IMG/VR virus record: IMGVR_UViG_3300021170_000051
Coordinates: 1-34,344 of that record
Length of the DNA: 34,344 nt
Reading direction: 5' to 3' (one strand)
DNA from: a virus
The notes under the pieces: model-generated
Told to the model about the DNA's origin: nothing
The model's input: only the letters and a program-made list of their open reading frames with translations
Database searches by the model: none
Made by a program: the position numbers and the translations under genes
Part shown: piece after piece, positions 2,823-32,534 of the stretch
Layout: every line of letters starts with the position of its first letter
How positions within the stretch are numbered: position 1 is the first letter of the stretch

Positions 2823-3325
2823 GAGAAAACGTTCCAATTCCCATGATCGGCCACAAGCGACTCGGCGAAGCAGTCGATTTTGAAGTCCTTCCTCCCTCCA
2901 TCAAGACGCGCAAGCTGGTTTTTGGCCGCGTTCCTTTGACCATTGACGCTATGCGTCAGCTTTAGGAGCTTGTCCTGCTCATCGCCTCCCGCCCGAGCTT
3001 TCGATTCGTTCTCCCATATGAACCTGTTCGTGAGCATGATCATCGCTATCGCATGAATGTCGCTCGCCGTCACCCGCTGACCACGCGCGAACAACTCCGC
3101 CAGGATCACGTCAATGTCGTGCTCTATTAGAGCACGTTCAGCGATGTACTCTTCACGATGTTCTGGAATGAAGATGGCCTTCAATTGAACGATGGTGAGG
3201 CGATCCACAAGATCAGAGATCGTCGGTAAGTAACGTCGCGCGTTACGTCCGATATGCACGTCATTTGAACGGTCTCTACCGAGAACAAGGTCCTGTCCGT
3301 CAGACATGGAAAGGTGTTCAGGCAT
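2819..3325 (-). CDS. Hypothetical protein with DLVDRL/IVQLK helix motif
   Basis: 168 aa. ATG 3325 has GGAGA seven bases upstream and overlaps the radical SAM stop by eight bases. The segment LPTISDLVDRLTIVQLKAIF followed by charged helices resembles a small helical protein type (ISDLIDRLSIV.LK) that I associate with phages and carbohydrate loci; its biochemical role is not established. The middle holds a second helix pair (residues about 60-110), and the C-terminus is basic then hydrophobic. It immediately follows the radical SAM gene, so it may act with it; this is only positional. Confidence 0.55.
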   Translation of the reverse strand: MPEHLSMSDGQDLVLGRDRSNDVHIGRNARRYLPTISDLVDRLTIVQLKAIFIPEHREEYIAERALIEHDIDVILAELFARGQRVTASDIHAIAMIMLTNRFIWENESKARAGGDEQDKLLKLTHSVNGQRNAAKNQLARLDGGRKDFKIDCFAESLVADHGNWNVFS

Positions 3326-4769
3326 CCGCTGTCTCCAGAAGTTTGCGCTTCAATCGGAATTTCGTCATGTCGCGTACGTGAGCGAGCGTTTCCGCTCCGA
3401 ACTTACGTTCAATCATGCTAAGATACGATGGATCGGTGAAGTACGTCACGAACGCATCGTCGCGGAAGCGAAGAACGGTCGCCGCGTCTACGTGCTCAGT
3501 GTCGAGCGGGCGAGTGTCGGCATTGTGCTGGCTGTAGCCCGACCATGTGGCGGGGAGAACGGCGCCGCCCTTCAGTGCATCGTCGTAGAGCTTGCTTCCG
3601 GGGTAGGCCATGGCTGAATAGAAGTTGGCGAACTCTGTGTTGCATTCGAGTGCGAGGTCAAGGGTTGCCTGCATAGAGGACATATCGTCATCCGGGAGGC
3701 CAAAGATATAATTTCCGATGACGTTGATGCCGGCAGATTGGATCGACCGAACCACACCAACAATATCCTCAGTCCTAAGAGCTTTCTCAGTCCCATCCCG
3801 AACATGTTTGCTCCCGCTCTCTATCCCCAACGCCAACCAACGTATGCCTGCCTTCTTAAACATCGCCAGCGTATGTGGTTTCACCGTATCGACGCGAGCG
3901 TACGCCCATATGTTCAGTTCATCGCCGAATCCGCTCTCGATTAGCTCGTTGCAGATCGCCGTATAGTGACGCTCGTTCAAAACGAACATCTCATCAACGA
4001 TCTTGAACGTCTTCACGCCGTATTGGCTATAGAGCATGCCGATTTCGTCTACTACGTCCGTGGGCGAACGCATGCGATAGCGATTGGATTGGAACGGAGC
4101 ATTAATGCAACAGAACGAGCACTTGTAGGGGCATCCGAGTGACGTATAGATGCTGGCGTACGGTTGGCGCTTCGATAAATCACCGAAACACTGCCAATTG
4201 TGCGCGCGGTAGCGCTCCATGGGGAGCAAATCCCATGCGTTGCCGTGGAGTTCGTTAACGTCAAGGAGCGGGGCGGACGGATTTACGTTGTAGATGCCCC
4301 AAACGAGCCCCGGAATCGACGGCAACGGCTTTTCTTCCAACAATCCAACGATTGTCGCCGGTCCCTCTCCGTTACATGCGTAATCGATCGCCTCTTCACG
4401 CAACGTACGCTCTGGTAACGCCGCAACGTGACCACCAACCATGATGATCGGAACGTCCGAACGTGCTTTGATGGCTTTCGCCGAGGCGCCAGCGCCTACC
4501 ATCTGCTGTGTCGATGCGCTTGGTTGATGCCCATACGATGCTATACAAACGAGACGCGGAGCGTATGTATCAACGACTGAAGCGATACGTTCGGGCGAAA
4601 GGTGGAGCGCCTCCGCATCTATGATGCGGACGGAGTACCCGCGATCACGAACGTAACCGGCGATGAGACGGCACCAAAGAGGGGGCTCAATTGCAATGAG
4701 ATTGTCGGCGATGTCAGTTCCGTACACGCCATGGGCGGCGGAAGGATTGATGATGACGAGATCGATCAT
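3318..4769 (-). CDS. Radical SAM enzyme with N-terminal B12-binding-like domain
   Basis: 483 aa. The radical SAM cluster motif CxxxCxxC is present as CPYKCSFC at C213, C217 and C220, so the protein should bind a 4Fe-4S cluster and cleave S-adenosylmethionine. Residues 1-150 have the Rossmann-like layout of the cobalamin-binding domain found in class B (BchE-like) radical SAM enzymes (LVIINPS, VGGHVAALPE, CNGEGPATI), but the DxHxxG cobalamin ligand motif is not evident. Further radical SAM elements are VDEMF (about 270), LGIESGS (about 310) and GNYIFGLPDD (about 350). The neighbours are an HNH endonuclease (ATGA overlap) and a double glycosyltransferase. The substrate is unknown; methylation or rearrangement of a sugar or lipid is possible. 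Confidence 0.9.
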   Translation of the reverse strand: MIDLVIINPSAAHGVYGTDIADNLIAIEPPLWCRLIAGYVRDRGYSVRIIDAEALHLSPERIASVVDTYAPRLVCIASYGHQPSASTQQMVGAGASAKAIKARSDVPIIMVGGHVAALPERTLREEAIDYACNGEGPATIVGLLEEKPLPSIPGLVWGIYNVNPSAPLLDVNELHGNAWDLLPMERYRAHNWQCFGDLSKRQPYASIYTSLGCPYKCSFCCINAPFQSNRYRMRSPTDVVDEIGMLYSQYGVKTFKIVDEMFVLNERHYTAICNELIESGFGDELNIWAYARVDTVKPHTLAMFKKAGIRWLALGIESGSKHVRDGTEKALRTEDIVGVVRSIQSAGINVIGNYIFGLPDDDMSSMQATLDLALECNTEFANFYSAMAYPGSKLYDDALKGGAVLPATWSGYSQHNADTRPLDTEHVDAATVLRFRDDAFVTYFTDPSYLSMIERKFGAETLAHVRDMTKFRLKRKLLETADA

Positions 4770-17161: not shown

Positions 17162-17331
17162 GCGAGCCAGTCAAAGAAATGGCTATCAGGCTCCTTGAGG
17201 ATAACCGCAAGGGCAAACCATGCACCACCAGCGACGGCAGGCCAACAAGGCGAGAAAGCTTCGATGAACTTCCATATGTCCTGCGTTGGGGATGGCTACA
17301 AGCGGCCAAGAAAGTCCTAAAGACCCAATGA
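17158..17331 (+). CDS. Small protein of unknown function (57 aa)
   Basis: 57 aa (starts MSEPVKEMAI, ends KKVLKTQ). It begins in an ATGA overlap with the dioxygenase and ends in an ATGA overlap with the hydrolase gene. The composition is basic with a Trp pair (LRWGWLQAAKK) near the C-terminus. The pattern DGRPTRRESFDELP is reminiscent of small phage proteins, but no family can be named. Confidence 0.7.
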   Translation: MSEPVKEMAIRLLEDNRKGKPCTTSDGRPTRRESFDELPYVLRWGWLQAAKKVLKTQ

Positions 17332-17942
17332 ACTACGAAGAACACCTCTTCGACACGCCGCTATGCGTCGTTGCGTTCGCCTCCGATGGAGGGCGTTCGA
17401 TCATACCGGACGTTCCCGATTACGAGTTCGGCAACTACCTCGCAACGCTCGGATGTTCGTACGTTCTCATGCGCGATACGCCCGATCGTTGGTACACACA
17501 GGGCATTGAAGGCATAGGAGATAGTTGGGCAGTAGCTAAATACATCTACGACCTGCGCCAAACTTACGACAAGGTAATGACGACGGGCGTTTCGTTCGGG
17601 GCGTACGGAGCGTTGATGTACGGTGCGATGGCGCCCGCCGACGAAATCGTGGCGATCTCTCCATTAACGGCGATTGGGGCGGCAGCGGAGGCGGAGCTAG
17701 AACCTAAGTGGCATCATCGCATAAAGTCGGACAAAAGTCTCGACCTGAAGCCACTGTTCTCCATGGATGGGCACGTTACGAACGTCAAGATTTTCGTAAG
17801 CGATGGTGAGGGAGCGGAGTTGGACCTATGGATGGCGGAGCGGTTGGGGATCAATCCCGTCACCATGATACGCGGTCATAGCCACGGTGGCTTGGCAAGG
17901 TGGATGAGGGATAACGGGTTCTTTGAGGAACTCTTTCGTTGA
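17328..17942 (+). CDS. Alpha/beta hydrolase-fold protein
   Basis: 204 aa from ATG 17328 (ATGA overlap). The nucleophile elbow is GVSFG with Ser89, followed by AYGALMYG; an acid candidate is Asp159 in IFVSDGEG, and the catalytic His is in RGHSHGG (184/186). These are the elements of a complete serine hydrolase triad in a short fold without a large lid. Hydrolases of this type in polysaccharide loci are often esterases that remove or transfer acyl groups. It is followed by a TTGA overlap to the half-length glycosyltransferase. Confidence 0.75.
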   Translation: MNYEEHLFDTPLCVVAFASDGGRSIIPDVPDYEFGNYLATLGCSYVLMRDTPDRWYTQGIEGIGDSWAVAKYIYDLRQTYDKVMTTGVSFGAYGALMYGAMAPADEIVAISPLTAIGAAAEAELEPKWHHRIKSDKSLDLKPLFSMDGHVTNVKIFVSDGEGAELDLWMAERLGINPVTMIRGHSHGGLARWMRDNGFFEELFR

Positions 17943-18352
17943 GGATCTTGTGGGTGGCGCCGAAAAACATCCACACCGAATCGGTCATCAGCGGCCTCAT
18001 GTCGCTCGGCACGCACGAAGTCATCGTCCATTGGATGGGGCACAACGGCCCCGTTGACCGCGGCGCTCTCGACGCCGCCGATCATCACCGTCCCGACATC
18101 ATCATCTATACGGGCGAGAACGGCGGTTGCCTCATGGTTACGACCGCAACACTCCGACGCCTGCGTACGTACGCCCCGACCGTCTTCATGTGCCACGATG
18201 CGTCCGACAGGACGTGGACGACGTTCCTTGACGACTTCATACGAAACGACGTGTTCTCAACGATGGTGTCGATCGACGGCAATCCGTCATGGAACCATCG
18301 TCCACAAGACATCACCGCGCTTACGCCCCATGACCCGAGGTTCTACGAATGA
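17939..18352 (+). CDS. Half-length CgeB-like glycosyltransferase (N-terminal domain only)
   Basis: 137 aa from TTG 17939, overlapping the hydrolase stop (TTGA). It aligns with the first half of the glycosyltransferase at 21198-22121: RILWVAP/KVLWLSP, GPVDRGALD/LPVDRGMLD, TLRRLRTYAPTVFMC/TFRRLRDTAPTVHLC and LTPHDPRFYE/FHPVDPRPYA. It ends exactly where the C-terminal domain would begin, so it lacks the nucleotide-sugar half and cannot be a full enzyme alone. It may be a subunit or a relict of gene duplication. Confidence 0.75.
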   Translation: MRILWVAPKNIHTESVISGLMSLGTHEVIVHWMGHNGPVDRGALDAADHHRPDIIIYTGENGGCLMVTTATLRRLRTYAPTVFMCHDASDRTWTTFLDDFIRNDVFSTMVSIDGNPSWNHRPQDITALTPHDPRFYE

Positions 18353-19413
18353 ACAAGCCCAATATTTTAGTCCTGACAACTAGTACCTCAAATACAGCGG
18401 CCTTCATCGGCTCTCTCCAATGCCTCGATCTTTATAACGTCAGCCCCCTTCCATACGATAGGAAATGGCACGAACAAGCGGGCATGGCGATCCAACAGAA
18501 CCCCGACTTTCTCAAGGCGCTACAGAACCGCCAAGCGCACATTCCCCGCGAGCGTTGCGCCATGGACGATCAAATGCTCATGGAAGCGAAGATCGGCAAG
18601 CCTGACGCCATCGTTTACATTTCCGCTTGGCAGGAAGATTACGTACCGCTCAATGAGACGCTTGGAGAACTCAACTCCATCGCCCCGCTCATCCACTTCC
18701 TCTGCGACGGAGCGGACTTCCCCTGGTGGCCTCAACTCAAGGAGTTTGAGCGACGCGGAACGTTCTCTCTCACCGTGAATATCGACGGCTCCCACTATTG
18801 GCCTGGGGGCAAAGACTGGCCTGATGTAGGAGTCACGGCCAGAGAGCCGGATGGCTCAGAAACTTTGCTCCCCAAAATCTCCAACGCCATGACGTTACTA
18901 ACGCCCGTTGACGTAAGCAAGTTCCCCCATACCGGGGTTGCGTACACCGAACGTCCATACGCCATCGGTTACGGAGGAAACAACGGCGGTCATATGCGGT
19001 CGGTCATCGTTCAGCGTATGCAGCGTGTGCCAGGGTTTGCCTTCAAGCAGCGCGACGTAAACCCGGAGACCTACCAAGGATATGCGGACTTCCTCTCCCA
19101 TTGTCGAGTGAGCGTGAACGTCCCATTCACGGGAACCGGATTGCATCGTCACGTTAAGGGGCGAGTGTTGGAAACGGGCTTCGCGGGAGCGTGTCTGTTG
19201 GAGTGGGAGAACGAAGCGACGCGAGCGTGGTTTTCTCCTCGCAACGAATTTTTCGAATATAACACGATTGACGGCTGCGCGGATATCGCCGAATGGCTTT
19301 CCAACCATCCACGGATCGCCGAGGAAACGGCGCGAGCGTTGAACGAACGTGTCGTGCGCGATCATCATCCGTGCGTGTTTTGGTCGAAAGTCCTAGGAGC
19401 GGTGATGAAATGA
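18349..19413 (+). CDS. CgeB-like glycosyltransferase (GT-B)
   Basis: 354 aa, ATGA overlaps at both ends. The N-terminal Rossmann-like domain (1-190) includes PDAIVYISAW and PLIHFLCDGADFPWW; the C-terminal domain has the family hallmark KGRVLETGFAGACLLEWEN (about residues 265-283) and EFFEY (about 301), as in Glyco_trans_1_2/CgeB proteins. It is closely related to the genes at 19679 and 21198. It probably transfers a sugar to a glycan or surface polymer; donor and acceptor are not predictable. Confidence 0.8.
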   Translation: MNKPNILVLTTSTSNTAAFIGSLQCLDLYNVSPLPYDRKWHEQAGMAIQQNPDFLKALQNRQAHIPRERCAMDDQMLMEAKIGKPDAIVYISAWQEDYVPLNETLGELNSIAPLIHFLCDGADFPWWPQLKEFERRGTFSLTVNIDGSHYWPGGKDWPDVGVTAREPDGSETLLPKISNAMTLLTPVDVSKFPHTGVAYTERPYAIGYGGNNGGHMRSVIVQRMQRVPGFAFKQRDVNPETYQGYADFLSHCRVSVNVPFTGTGLHRHVKGRVLETGFAGACLLEWENEATRAWFSPRNEFFEYNTIDGCADIAEWLSNHPRIAEETARALNERVVRDHHPCVFWSKVLGAVMK

Positions 19414-19682
19414 GCGAATGGCAACCGATCGACACGGCACCAACGGATGGTCGTAGATTTTTGGTCTTTGCCACGGGGGAATGTTCAATTGGTCCAGCGA
19501 AGAATAAATTCTCTGGCGTGTTCGTAGCTTGGTATTCCCAGCCGTCGATCATCGGCTCAACTCGTGACGAAAGATTGGCCGCCATAGAAAAGACATTGCC
19601 GCCATACTTAAGCATAGATTGCGGCTCGTTTTCCAAAGCGGAAGCCAAACATTGGATGCCATTTCCAGACCCTCCGAGATGA
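19410..19682 (+). CDS. DUF551-like small phage protein
   Basis: 90 aa from ATG 19410 (ATGA overlap at each end). The start WQPIDTAPTDGRRFLVF and the ending WMPFPDPPR match the DUF551-type phage proteins that open with WxPIxTAPKDG and close with WMPLPEPP. Function is unknown. It is lodged between two related glycosyltransferase genes. Confidence 0.78.
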   Translation: MSEWQPIDTAPTDGRRFLVFATGECSIGPAKNKFSGVFVAWYSQPSIIGSTRDERLAAIEKTLPPYLSIDCGSFSKAEAKHWMPFPDPPR

Positions 19683-20587
19683 GCGTCCTATGGTGGGCTT
19701 TCTCACTTTGTACCGCTACCCCGTGGCATAGGTCGCTGCCTAATGCCAAATTTTTCTACTACTACGATAAGGTATCTCACCCGCCAGGACTCCTTCCGAT
19801 TCCACCCGATCGCGCCATGCTTGACATCGCTGCAAAAGAACGTCCCGATCTTATGCTCTTCGATGGGATCGCCGATGGCGCTAGAATGCCCCAGCCATCA
19901 ACGCTACGGGCGTTACGTTCTATCGCCCCGCTCGTTCTCTTGTCTGGAGACCTTAGCGATCCGCCGTGGTGGCCATATCTTGAGACGTTCAAAGACGAGC
20001 GTTGCTTTGACGTAATGGTGAATTTTGATGGGAATCCATCGTGGCCTAAGCCGGAACGCTCACTCGACCTACTCACACCCATCGCGCACGAGTTCTACCC
20101 CATGCCGCTGAAGCCGCTTGCTCAACGTATCATCCAATTCGGATTCGCGGGCGGGTGTGCTTCGCCATCCCGATGGGAGATCATCGGGTATCTCGTCGAT
20201 CACGCCGGCCTGAAGATAATGCCACGAGATGAAACCTACGGTTCGTACGGGCGTTTCGCTCGCTACATGATGGAATGCCAGTTGACGGTGAATGTCCCAA
20301 TTTCAGGTTCCGATAATTCTCGTCAGTGCAAGGGGCGTGTGTTGGAGGCAGGATTAGCGGGAACGTGCCTATTGGAACACGAAAGCTCCGCCGCGCAGTT
20401 TTGGTTTGAAGCGGGGCGTGATTACGTCGTGTACCGTACGCGGGAGGAAGCGGCGGAGTTGTCGCGTGAGTTATTGGCGGACGTGCCTAGGATGGAAGCC
20501 ATCGCACAGCGCCTGCAACGGAAGGTGCGGGAGAACCATTCGCCAGCCATCTTTTGGCAGCGTATTTTCGAGGCGGTCGGCAAATGA
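19679..20587 (+). CDS. CgeB-like glycosyltransferase (GT-B)
   Basis: 302 aa from ATG 19679, four-base overlap with the DUF551-like gene. The N-terminal domain has PDLMLFDGIADG and PLVLLSGDLSDPPWW; the C-terminal domain has KGRVLEAGLAGTCLLEHES and RDYVVYRTREEAAEL, the most conserved block of the family. Compared with the gene at 18349 it has a shorter N-terminus. Tandem arrangement of three full paralogues suggests duplication followed by change of specificity. The first strand is MSVLWWAF. Confidence 0.8.
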   Translation: MSVLWWAFSLCTATPWHRSLPNAKFFYYYDKVSHPPGLLPIPPDRAMLDIAAKERPDLMLFDGIADGARMPQPSTLRALRSIAPLVLLSGDLSDPPWWPYLETFKDERCFDVMVNFDGNPSWPKPERSLDLLTPIAHEFYPMPLKPLAQRIIQFGFAGGCASPSRWEIIGYLVDHAGLKIMPRDETYGSYGRFARYMMECQLTVNVPISGSDNSRQCKGRVLEAGLAGTCLLEHESSAAQFWFEAGRDYVVYRTREEAAELSRELLADVPRMEAIAQRLQRKVRENHSPAIFWQRIFEAVGK

Positions 20588-21201
20588 GAAAGAACGAAGC
20601 TAAAGAGAGGGCCTACCTCCTTGGTCTAAAGCAATACGTAACACCCGACAAGCCATGCTGTCGCGGTCACACCTCTCCGCGAAGAGTAGATACCGGAGCT
20701 TGCATTGAATGTCTGCGCCATCACATGGCTAAATATTACCAAAAAAACCGCGAGGCAAGGCTTAAATATCAGCGCGACAATCTCCATAGGACACAGGAAC
20801 TCATCAGGAAGCGCCGAGAAATTAACCCCGACAAATACAAGCAACAAGCACTTGCATATTCTCGGAAAAGAATGACACGTCCAGAAGTCAAGGTCAGCAA
20901 CAGAGTCAGAGTGCAGATGCACAAATTACTGAGGGGAGGAAAGGGTGGTCGGCGATGGGAGGAATTGGTAGGATATAGTAAAGAGATGCTCAAGGTTCAT
21001 TTAGAGAAACAATTCACTAAAGGCATGTGTTGGGAAAACATGGGAGAGTGGCACATAGATCACATAGTACCGCTTTCTTCCTTCAACTTTTCAACACCTG
21101 AAGACCCTGACTTCAGGCGCGCTTGGGCTTTGACTAATCTTCGCCCACTATGGGCTTCGGAGAACATAGCAAAGCACGCGAGAAGGACGCTCCTTCTATG
21201 A
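20584..21201 (+). CDS. HNH endonuclease
   Basis: 205 aa from ATG 20584. An N-terminal CxxGH...CxxC zinc-binding region (CCRGHTSP, CIECLRHH) is followed by a long basic coiled region with YQKNREARLKYQRDN repeats and then the nuclease core WHIDHIVPLSSFNF, ending with LTNLRPLWASENIAKH. This is the signature of phage HNH homing endonucleases. It splits the glycosyltransferase array with ATGA overlaps on both sides, so it has replaced junctions cleanly. It is more A-rich than its neighbours, suggesting recent arrival. Confidence 0.88.
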   Translation: MRKNEAKERAYLLGLKQYVTPDKPCCRGHTSPRRVDTGACIECLRHHMAKYYQKNREARLKYQRDNLHRTQELIRKRREINPDKYKQQALAYSRKRMTRPEVKVSNRVRVQMHKLLRGGKGGRRWEELVGYSKEMLKVHLEKQFTKGMCWENMGEWHIDHIVPLSSFNFSTPEDPDFRRAWALTNLRPLWASENIAKHARRTLLL

Positions 21202-22121
21202 AAGTGCTTTGGCTTTCACCTTCGGATATGTTGACGTACTGGATCATTGGCTCGATTGATTGCCTGAATGATCATGATGTGCATATATGCCGATATGACC
21301 GCATCGGACTCCCCGTCGATCGGGGCATGCTTGACTTCGCTGACCGGGTTAAGCCGGATGTGATTTTGTACGTCAGTCAGGCCGATGGACCGTTCGTAGC
21401 CGAACCATCAACATTCCGGCGTCTGCGAGACACCGCACCAACAGTGCATCTCTGCTTTGATGCCGGGGATATCGGATTTGAACGGCTGCTCAATACGTAC
21501 AAAGAGAAACAATGCTTTGATGTAACGGTGGCGTGCGACGGGTGCAACATGGGGCCTGTGGATCTTGTGCTATTTCATCCGGTTGACCCGCGACCGTACG
21601 CCGAACCTCTACAGCGAGACATCGCGCTAGGAACTTGTGGTGGGTTCCCGTATGGCTTACGAAAAGATGTGTCTGAGCATTTGGTACGAAAGAGCGGTTT
21701 GATTATTAAACCTCGCGAGGAGTGGTACAATTCATATCCTCGATTTGCGGACTTTTTGAAGCGGTGTCGTATCGTCCTCGATTGCGCTCTCAGCGCTGGA
21801 GGGCACGACGGTAAGGGGCCGTACACCCGTACGCTGAAGACCCGCGCCATAGAGACCGGACTGGCGGGGGCCTGTCTCCTTGAGCTTCGTGGATGCGCGC
21901 TTAGTAAATACGCCGTGGAAGATCGCGATTACGTGACATACGAGACGAAAGAGGAGGCCGAGGACAAAGTATCCGATCTCATGCGTGATTGGGATCGTGC
22001 GGCGGCGATTGCCGCTCGCTTTCATACGCTCGTTACCACGCGATTGTCCCCACGAGTCTTCTGGCATGAAATATGGACCTACTTACGGGCACATTCACTA
22101 TTGTCCGAGTACCAATCGTAA
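21198..22121 (+). CDS. CgeB-like glycosyltransferase (GT-B)
   Basis: 307 aa from ATG 21198. The N-terminal domain is closely similar to the half-length protein at 17939 (GLPVDRGMLDFADRVKPDVILY; TFRRLRDTAPTV). The C-terminal domain contains KTRAIETGLAGACLLELRG and RDYVTYETKEEAEDKV. It is the last gene of the rightward block and its 3' end overlaps the convergent epimerase gene by 43 bases. No terminator hairpin is seen. Confidence 0.8.
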   Translation: MKVLWLSPSDMLTYWIIGSIDCLNDHDVHICRYDRIGLPVDRGMLDFADRVKPDVILYVSQADGPFVAEPSTFRRLRDTAPTVHLCFDAGDIGFERLLNTYKEKQCFDVTVACDGCNMGPVDLVLFHPVDPRPYAEPLQRDIALGTCGGFPYGLRKDVSEHLVRKSGLIIKPREEWYNSYPRFADFLKRCRIVLDCALSAGGHDGKGPYTRTLKTRAIETGLAGACLLELRGCALSKYAVEDRDYVTYETKEEAEDKVSDLMRDWDRAAAIAARFHTLVTTRLSPRVFWHEIWTYLRAHSLLSEYQS

Positions 22122-22999
22122 GTCTCTTTCAACCCCCTGGCAAGGCTGTACTCTGGCATGAAACCGAGCGCACGTAGTCTCGCCATGTCGTATTGGCGAT
22201 GCTTCTGCCCTACGGGTTTCGACGTATCCCACTCAACGACATCATGCTTTGAATGGATGCCTAGAGTTTCCGCCGCTTGGCGGATCGTATAAGAGTCGCC
22301 CGTCGAGAGGTTAATCGCCCCCTCGCCGCTCTCCATCATCATTACGAGACCGCGTACAGCGTCCTTCACGTAGAGGAAGTCCCTCGTAGCCGAGCCATCA
22401 CCCCATATGCTCACGGGCGTTCCATCACGTTTCGCTTCGTAGAACTTCCGTACGAGTGACGGAATGACGTGTCCATGCTCAATGTCGAAACGATCGTGGG
22501 CACCGTATAGGTTCGTGCTGATGGCGCAGGCGTAGCTGATGCCGTAGTCGTTCTTATAGCATTCAAGCTGAGCAAGCATGTGGCGCTTGGCATTTCCGTA
22601 TCCGTACTCCGATGAATGCGGCTGGCCTTCCCATAGATCGGACTCGCTATAGTGCTCGCTCTTCTTGTCGGGATACATCGCCACAGTACCCATGGCGACG
22701 ATCTTACGAACGGACACTTCTCGACAGGCGTCAATGACGTTCATATTTATGGTTGTGTTTCGGACGAACGAGTACGACTGAGCCTTCATGTTACCGGCGA
22801 TGCCACGAACGTACGCCGCCATGTGGAAGACGTACGTCGGCTTGATTTGAGCGAACGCCGCTTTCGTGTAGTACGGTGACATGAGATCGACGTTCGATAT
22901 GCAAACGTCTGTGTATCCCGCCTCCGTGAGATGGTTGAGGAGATGCTTCCCCACCATCCCTCTTCCACCCGTTATGAGGATGCGATCCGTTTTCTCCAT
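22079..22999 (-). CDS. NAD-dependent epimerase, GDP-L-fucose synthase-like
   Basis: 306 aa, ATG 22999 with GGGAG upstream. Rossmann motif TGGRGMVGKH (10-19), a substrate Ser/Thr region VAMGTVAMYP, YxxxK as YGYGNAK, and NLYGAHDRF..HVIPSLVRKFYEAK with WGDGSATRDFLYVKDA are all characteristic of the extended SDR GDP-fucose synthase group. It should epimerise and/or reduce a nucleotide-activated 4-keto sugar. No GDP-mannose dehydratase is in the window, so the precursor would come from the host or elsewhere in the genome. It converges on the glycosyltransferase block. Confidence 0.85.
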   Translation of the reverse strand: MEKTDRILITGGRGMVGKHLLNHLTEAGYTDVCISNVDLMSPYYTKAAFAQIKPTYVFHMAAYVRGIAGNMKAQSYSFVRNTTINMNVIDACREVSVRKIVAMGTVAMYPDKKSEHYSESDLWEGQPHSSEYGYGNAKRHMLAQLECYKNDYGISYACAISTNLYGAHDRFDIEHGHVIPSLVRKFYEAKRDGTPVSIWGDGSATRDFLYVKDAVRGLVMMMESGEGAINLSTGDSYTIRQAAETLGIHSKHDVVEWDTSKPVGQKHRQYDMARLRALGFMPEYSLARGLKETYDWYSDNSECARK

Positions 23000-31816: not shown

Positions 31817-32019
31817 TGGTGTCCAGCCCCGCTGCTGTCCGCTGGCGTGGCGCCAAACGAAGCTGGCGTGAACGAGCCGGGCGAACTACCAACGCCCACG
31901 ATGAAATCACAGAAACGTTGCGCCGTTGCCATAACATCATCAAGTGAGCCGTTGTTGCGGTAGTGAAACTCCATCGCCTGAACGACCGCCCACCTACGGG
32001 TCTCAGCGTCGATCGTCAC
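31813..32019 (-). CDS. Small hypothetical protein (68 aa)
   Basis: 68 aa from GTG 32019; AAGGGA lies eight bases upstream and the GTGA overlaps the previous stop. The first half (DAETRRWAVVQAMEFHYRNNGSLDDVMATAQRF) is helical, the second half Ser/Pro/Gly-rich. Unknown function. Confidence 0.7.
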   Translation of the reverse strand: MTIDAETRRWAVVQAMEFHYRNNGSLDDVMATAQRFCDFIVGVGSSPGSFTPASFGATPADSSGAGHQ

Positions 32020-32075
32020 GAATGCGGTCCCTTCAAGTCATACCGACGCTGCGTTTTCGTGACCTTCGGCGTCAA
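32016..32075 (-). CDS. Tiny basic protein (19 aa)
   Basis: A 19-codon frame begins at TTG 32075 with AGGGG at the right distance and ends TGA at 32016, overlapping both neighbours (TTGA and GTGA). It reads TPKVTKTQRRYDLKGPHS after the start. The double overlap makes it more likely than a chance frame, but expression is unproven. Confidence 0.45.
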   Translation of the reverse strand: MTPKVTKTQRRYDLKGPHS

Positions 32076-32128
32076 CGACGCCCCTGCTTCGGAGGCTTGA
32101 CCGAATGTTTTTTCATTTTCTTTGGCAT
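32072..32128 (-). CDS. Tiny Lys/Arg-rich protein (18 aa)
   Basis: ATG 32128 follows a strong AAAGGAG and opens 18 codons (MPKKMKKHSVKPPKQGRR) to TGA 32072. It is the first reading frame after the pentamer array, at the start of a downstream series of coupled genes. Eight of its residues are Lys or Arg. Confidence 0.5.
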   Translation of the reverse strand: MPKKMKKHSVKPPKQGRR

Positions 32129-32156: not shown

Positions 32157-32291
32157 AAGCCACACCATACCTAACCCCTCCTGACCCGACCGGGCCGGAA
32201 CTTACCCCACCGTGCCTGACCGCTCCTAACCACGCCTCACCGCGTCACGCCGTACCGCTCCCTGACATGACCGACCTCACCGCACCTAAAC
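32157..32291 (-). repeat. 27-unit pentamer-phased array (GGNNN on minus strand)
   Basis: On the plus strand the bases from 32157 to 32291 divide into 27 consecutive 5-mers that all end in C; 22 of the 27 end in CC and 14 in ACC (for example ATACC, TAACC, TGACC, GTACC, TCACC). The middle bases vary, so it is not a simple tandem repeat. Two units span about one DNA turn. It begins in the stop codon region of the GcrA-like gene and stops just before the Shine-Dalgarno of the tiny basic gene. The sequence is transcribed as GGNNN repeats. A 5-base period excludes protein coding. Confidence 0.9.
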
Positions 32292-32534
32292 TCCTTTCGT
32301 AAACGAGCGCCGTCGCGATTGAACGGCGCGCTGTCTCATTCCGGGTCCATCACCATAAACACATTTCGGGCGGGGCGGAAGCCCGATTCGGCGAGCCTTG
32401 CCGATCACCTGATTCTTCGTCAGGTGCATCGTCGTGCCGATCTTCGCTGCCGACAACCCACTGGCCCACAACTTCGCAAGCTTACGCTCCTCTTCCTCCG
32501 TCCATACGTGGTCTCCGTTGAAACGTTCGCTCAT
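32286..32534 (-). CDS. GcrA-like small DNA-binding protein
   Basis: 82 aa from ATG 32534 (ATGA overlap). The sequence WTEEEERKLAKLWASGLSAAKIGTTM, then NQVIGKARRIGLPPRP matches the GcrA cell-cycle regulator N-terminal domain, a Myb/SANT-like fold known from alphaproteobacteria and their phages. The C-terminus is basic. It precedes the pentamer array and may bind it; this is a hypothesis. Confidence 0.78.
   Translation of the reverse strand: MSERFNGDHVWTEEEERKLAKLWASGLSAAKIGTTMHLTKNQVIGKARRIGLPPRPKCVYGDGPGMRQRAVQSRRRSFTKGV

Follow-up and report, generated by a model that had tools for sequence, protein, structure and literature searches.

VIPR systems, described in a preprint of April 2026 (bioRxiv 10.64898/2026.04.26.720920, PMC13142463; version 2, June 2026), consist of Vipr proteins, which are mostly phage-encoded RAMPs, and of guide RNAs (vrRNAs) built from 9–16 YNNGG repeats followed by a structured tail. 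The NN pairs of a vrRNA bind double-stranded DNA with a skip of one base, mostly at the codon wobble position, and the systems repress competing phages and prophages; some vrRNAs are directed at other VIPR systems, and staggered vrRNA arrays are also mentioned (PMC13142463). Here, we examine an array of 27 pentamers in the IMG/VR virus record IMGVR_UViG_3300021170_000051, of which positions 1 to 34,344 were analyzed (hereafter, the window). We consider this array highly likely to constitute a vrRNA repeat region. VIPR has been known only since April 2026, and the array would be a new, and possibly an orphan, member of this kind; its assignment to a complete VIPR system is provisional.

Phase, strand, and composition of the window array

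On the plus strand, C recurs at intervals of five bases between 32161 and 32291 (27 of 27) with no slip in phase, and the units of the array at 32157–32291 end in CC in 22 of 27 cases and in ACC in 14, reproducing all of the counts in the original prediction, which was made from the letters alone. That prediction also stated that the other positions vary, which holds for the two free bases but misses a constraint at position 3, where A occurs in 16 units, G in 8, and T in 3, so that 24 of 27 units have a purine there. This makes the plus-strand unit NNRCC and the minus-strand unit GGYNN, the minus strand being that of all genes flanking the array. Read 5′ to 3′ from 32291, 20 of the 27 units conform to GGY-NN, and the first G of the unit is present in all 27. 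The first unit, GTTTA, overlaps the stop codon (32286–32288) of the preceding GcrA-like gene, and the array ends at its 3′ side ~15 nt ahead of a GAAAGGAG ribosome site, a placement that had been correctly predicted. The free dinucleotides run TA GC GA CG AT AG GC AC GT GC GA GT TA GC (units 1–14) and CA AC GG AA CC CC CG CA GG TA AT GT TT (units 15–27).

This degree of phasing is not reproduced by chance. Elsewhere in the window, the best run of period 5 has 12 units; among 20,000 first-order Markov simulations of the interval, the highest value was 17 against the 27 observed; and in the composition-matched shuffle suggested with the original prediction the observed phasing was never attained, with a maximum of 23 of 27 in phase over 200,000 letter shuffles. 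The array was also predicted to be neither coding nor a conventional tandem repeat, and both statements stand: identity at a lag of 15 nt is 0.50 vs 0.52 at other lags, so that no 15-nt codon periodicity is present, and Tandem Repeats Finder, run on the window, reported no repeat at the interval, which argues against an ordinary tandem repeat. Near-identical copies, as expected of a microsatellite, are absent from the array, as are the identical repeats of ~25–40 nt with unique spacers that define a CRISPR array. Rfam covariance models gave only a chance-level match to the array (E 1.9). Its RNA was predicted to fold more weakly than 193 of 200 shuffles, which fits the expectation for a guide, and the array shows the hallmark of a vrRNA, a tandem series of GGY/NN (YNNGG) pentamers in which NN is hypervariable. 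VIPR guides can be recognized in raw sequence from their phase alone, without the protein.

Array-bearing phages and the phrog_4652 protein

The original prediction had proposed scanning related phages for GG phased at 5 bp, and such a scan, which revealed a family of arrays and a protein partner, phrog_4652, proved decisive. A search of IMG/VR for 24 C residues in succession, each five bases from the last, returned at least 120 loci. Among the 120 matches listed, ~70 are pentapeptide-repeat-like protein genes; these share with the window array a C at every fifth base, but have a 15-nt codon periodicity and a low diversity of units that the window array lacks. Also among the matches listed, ~47 other viral contigs carry true 5-nt arrays, whose identity is the same at lags of 5 and 15. 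The fixed sense-strand triplet varies by phage (GGC/GGY, CGC, GAC, or CAC). In GGY arrays, the triplet is retained and the free positions are near-random, with all 16 dinucleotides present at 3–10% each (1,923 units), and 94 of 282 GGY runs in related loci are at least 20 units long. A conceivable source of the NN diversity is adenine mutagenesis of the DGR type. The arrays mostly occupy intergenic gaps and are often split by short phage-specific spacers, some of which contain hairpins (L122, L008, and L062). The spacers at 4530–4590 and 4780–4840 in L122 and at 4042–4184, 4345–4382, and 4470–4507 in L008 have hairpins with stems that, by eye, vary on both sides between copies, as vrRNA tails would be expected to do.

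The protein phrog_4652 was detected in 43 of the 47 other array-bearing records among the matches listed (10/10 plus 33/37), and arrays of the CGC, GAC, and CAC types were represented among these; none of 50 control records drawn from that scan had it. Conversely, of 77 loci fetched solely through relatives of the array-adjacent protein of L027 (phrog_4652), 70 contained arrays, vs 1 of 68 loci fetched through terminase. Orientation was equally consistent, with 142 of 145 arrays near a phrog_4652 gene being G-rich on the sense strand of that gene. In the named phage DSL-LC04 (OR003939.1), which was reached via the protein, the array adjoins the phrog_4652 gene. A 32-member family profile matched a single PDB sequence, 36pp, “SUSP1 Vipr protein” (E 6.5e-23), and an AlphaFold2 model of the family (pLDDT 87.9) matched Csm3/Cas7-type RAMPs of CRISPR effectors (E 2.8e-7). 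The phrog_4652 family, currently of “unknown function” (L027, L122, L008, L314, and L315–L391), corresponds to Vipr and may be annotated under that name. VIPR guides are now tied to a named family, and further phage-specific triplets, CGC, GAC, and CAC, are added to their repertoire.

We also considered a winged helix-turn-helix (wHTH)-like protein as the sole partner of the arrays, as its gene lies beside CGC-type arrays in 12 of 12 loci. This was rejected because the records encoding it also encode phrog_4652, and the wHTH-like gene is therefore probably an accessory (vap) gene. The protein has 170–180 aa and no Pfam or PHROG assignment, and is encoded between the CGC-type (or GAC-type) arrays of VIPR loci (L062, L105, L116, L030, L089, L013, and L392–L403).

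The one-base skip was then examined with 367 natural guides from the fetched loci against 3.6 Mb of sequence in which arrays had been masked. Strong matches were obtained for 20 distinct guides at a skip of 1, compared with 2, 3, and 3 guides at skips of 0, 2, and 3, respectively, and reversed guides gave 6 at a skip of 1; low-complexity matches were present in both the guide and the reversed-guide sets. The best matches make sense biologically. In related VIPR phages, the helicase segment NVNVLTTGFDAP is matched in frame by guides from each of L345, L387, and L341, and the skipped base is the wobble base. The vipr motif KKTDNIETYVY is matched in antisense by an L108 guide, and the final part of a vipr gene by one from L318. 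A single helicase motif of rival VIPR phages is thus the common aim of guides from three phages, while other guides match rival vipr genes. These results support the one-base-skip code independently across related phages.

Among the terminase relatives, no homologous interval was found for an aligned test of phase, and arrays were present in L266 only, with another triplet. Degenerate GGCNN arrays were also seen in bacterial genome contigs from several phyla (L172, L130, L139, L175, L135, L230, and L235); L172, from an Alphaproteobacteria metagenome-assembled genome, has copies of a TCGAAGTCC-like motif between its array blocks at 3495–3695. Pure pentanucleotide microsatellites (CTTGC, GGCTT, CAAGG, and CACGC) also occupy intergenic positions in many bacteria (e.g., L137, L163, L187, L217, and L222).

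The window array as a probable VIPR guide, and alternative readings

Taken together, the phase, the strand, the link to a RAMP, and the skip code indicate that the window array is, in all likelihood, a vrRNA-type guide and not a protein-binding DNA array. Like described VIPR guides, it comprises tandem GGY/NN pentamers with a fixed triplet and a free dinucleotide, and lies on the sense strand in an intergenic gap of a phage, beside a gene for a DNA-binding protein; the phages related to it by array encode the Vipr protein and follow the one-base skip. Judging from PMC13142463 and the Csm3/Cas7 fold, the step of 5 nt most likely corresponds to the stretch of guide RNA taken up by each RAMP subunit, and the seemingly random positions most likely hold the information. 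A parallel exists in class 1 CRISPR systems, where a Cas7/Csm3 RAMP backbone assembles on CRISPR RNA: the partner family of the arrays has the RAMP fold, and both arrangements place one subunit per fixed step of RNA with positions kinked out (compare PMC13142463). The window array nonetheless differs in having no repeat-spacer layout, contiguous spacer, or cas genes, and in a step of 5 nt vs 6 nt.

We infer that the window array is transcribed and loaded onto Vipr. Transcription would proceed leftward together with the surrounding operon, and a Vipr-type RAMP would coat the RNA, each GGY-NN unit taking one subunit, with the protein held by the GGY triplets and the NN pairs left exposed. These pairs would then read double-stranded DNA in the form NNxNNx..., with the skipped base usually at the codon wobble position, and such binding would shut down a gene in a competitor, be it a phage, a prophage, or a satellite. 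The original prediction had included a GGNNN RNA leader among its suggestions, and this was right in that the sense RNA is the functional strand, though the interpretation as a whole is only partly supported.

Several observations weigh against a VIPR guide. No vipr gene was detected in the window or in its 63.6-kb, possibly incomplete sister, IMG/VR contig 3300050821_007791, by the family model, the profile, hhalign of 201 open reading frames (ORFs), or motif; the two contigs represent the same phage, with a single 1-bp gap over the aligned sequence checked. GGY is absent from 7 of the 27 units, and the 27 units form one run, whereas 9–16 repeats are described per vrRNA (PMC13142463). It may represent a single long guide or several that overlap. 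The candidate 3′ hairpin is statistically weak (−11.1 kcal/mol for 59 nt, z −1.46). No target of the window guide beyond chance was found in viral contigs, the fetched loci, or 385 genomes of one class, this being the class of a Rhizobium, as GcrA suggested Alphaproteobacteria, with the host itself not established. Decoding the guide into codons gives peptides that look protein-like, and this was dismissed as vacuous because a stop is not imposed by any NN pair alone; the two decoded peptides gave no match in tblastn.

The likeliest reason for the absent vipr is that the gene sits in genome sequence extending past the ends of the contig. Both contigs end within 24 bases of each other, ~1.8 kb past the start of the GcrA-like gene, and are classed as linear, without end repeats; as they break at nearly the same place, vipr may lie beyond the break. 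Alternatively, the phage may truly lack vipr, its RNA hijacking the Vipr of a resident prophage or co-infecting phage, or acting as a decoy for an enemy Vipr, an arrangement that would parallel, within VIPR, solo CRISPR mini-arrays or RNA anti-CRISPRs. This would accord with the failure to detect vipr in 63.6 kb, with vrRNAs directed against other VIPR systems (PMC13142463), and with the guides against vipr genes seen here. Four other array records (L018, L063, L107 [64 kb], and L114) are likewise without a detected vipr, and might belong to the same orphan class. We regard an orphan vrRNA as unlikely, however, given that the contigs are linear, lack end repeats, and both stop near the array as if at an assembly break. 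Were the phage truly without vipr, it would point to RNA-only players in VIPR conflicts, and the apparent lack of the gene, together with the uninterrupted length of 27 units, is what gives this array an interest of its own.

Explanations that dispense with a guide RNA fare considerably worse. The original prediction noted that 5 nt is half a helical turn, so that CC pairs alternate between opposite faces of the DNA, and proposed a binding array for a phage protein; protomers of, for example, the GcrA-like or another HTH (helix-turn-helix) protein would then sit on alternating faces. The adjoining GcrA-like gene, and the wHTH-like gene beside CGC-type arrays, are compatible with this, but the partner common to every type of array has the RAMP fold, which binds RNA; arrays have a fixed orientation relative to that gene, which DNA binding would not need; and GcrA-like homologues in L002–L004 are without an array. 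The helical-face idea is unsupported, the 5-nt step being more likely to reflect RAMP subunit spacing, and a DNA-binding array appears very improbable. Nor was support found for a replication or recombination element, which had also been proposed. An expanded and decayed pentanucleotide microsatellite would be in keeping with the pure GCCNN-type microsatellites of many bacterial genomes. Decay, however, would strike all five positions equally, whereas here a triplet is kept and the other two positions are near-random, and no relatives with equal drift at the five positions were seen. Tandem Repeats Finder, the missing 15-nt periodicity, and the diversity of units speak against this origin and against a repetitive coding gene alike, and we find either scarcely credible.

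We give equally little credence to an R-loop or G-quadruplex element on the non-template strand, with GG tracts and 3-nt loops: the sense strand does have GG every five bases, yet CGC, GAC, and CAC arrays, which have no GG tracts, share the same partner protein and layout. A further analogy concerns the sites bound by TRAP, a ring protein that takes up 11 repeats of GAG/UAG triplets separated by 2–3-nt spacers, the spacers holding no target information. The window array resembles these in combining an RNA triplet with 2-nt spacing, and differs in that the array partner is a RAMP. TRAP-like sites, R-loops, G-quadruplexes, and immunoglobulin-switch analogies were all rejected because CGC-, GAC-, and CAC-type arrays have the same RAMP partner.

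Neighbors of the array and other features of the window phage

The array and the features surrounding it are listed in Table 1.

Table 1. Location of the window array and adjacent features (window coordinates)
Feature	Position	Strand	Remarks
Repeat region, highly probable vrRNA-type guide	32157..32291	−	27 units, single phase
Possible 3′ tail, 9-bp hairpin UUUUUCUUU-AUUAGCG-AAAGGAGAA	32134..32158	−	Directly after the repeats
GcrA-like DNA-binding protein gene	32286..32534	−	82 aa; Pfam GcrA, E 7.1e-11
Small ORF (MPKKMKKHSVKPPKQG...)	32018..32128	−	Directly downstream of the array

From its position, the 9-bp hairpin is a possible vrRNA tail, and it also overlies the ribosome site of the next ORF. 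We know of no homologue of this hairpin among known vrRNA tails. The GcrA-like gene adjoins the array on its upstream side, and its position and DNA-binding domain make it a candidate accessory (vap-like) gene. In the sister contig L001, the small ORF has 37 aa (MPKKMKKHSVKPPKQGPSLTPKVTKTQRRYDLKGPHS) and runs into the start of the next gene; the window copy is frameshifted near 32080, where it has one C fewer than L001, a 1-base difference for which faulty assembly or sequencing of either contig is the probable cause.

In the window phage record joined with its 63.6-kb sister, GANTC is not depleted (243 seen vs 239 expected), and this therefore lends no support to adaptation to a GcrA/CcrM host. 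Other sites in the joined record deviate from expectation: GAATTC is absent (0 vs 11 expected), CTAG is depleted (61 vs 239), and GATC is over-represented (390 vs 239). Finally, the structural region of the phage holds a radical SAM protein with a B12-binding domain (window 3318–4769, minus strand) and, at 17286–22999, a run of genes that by eye resemble glycosyltransferases and sugar epimerases.
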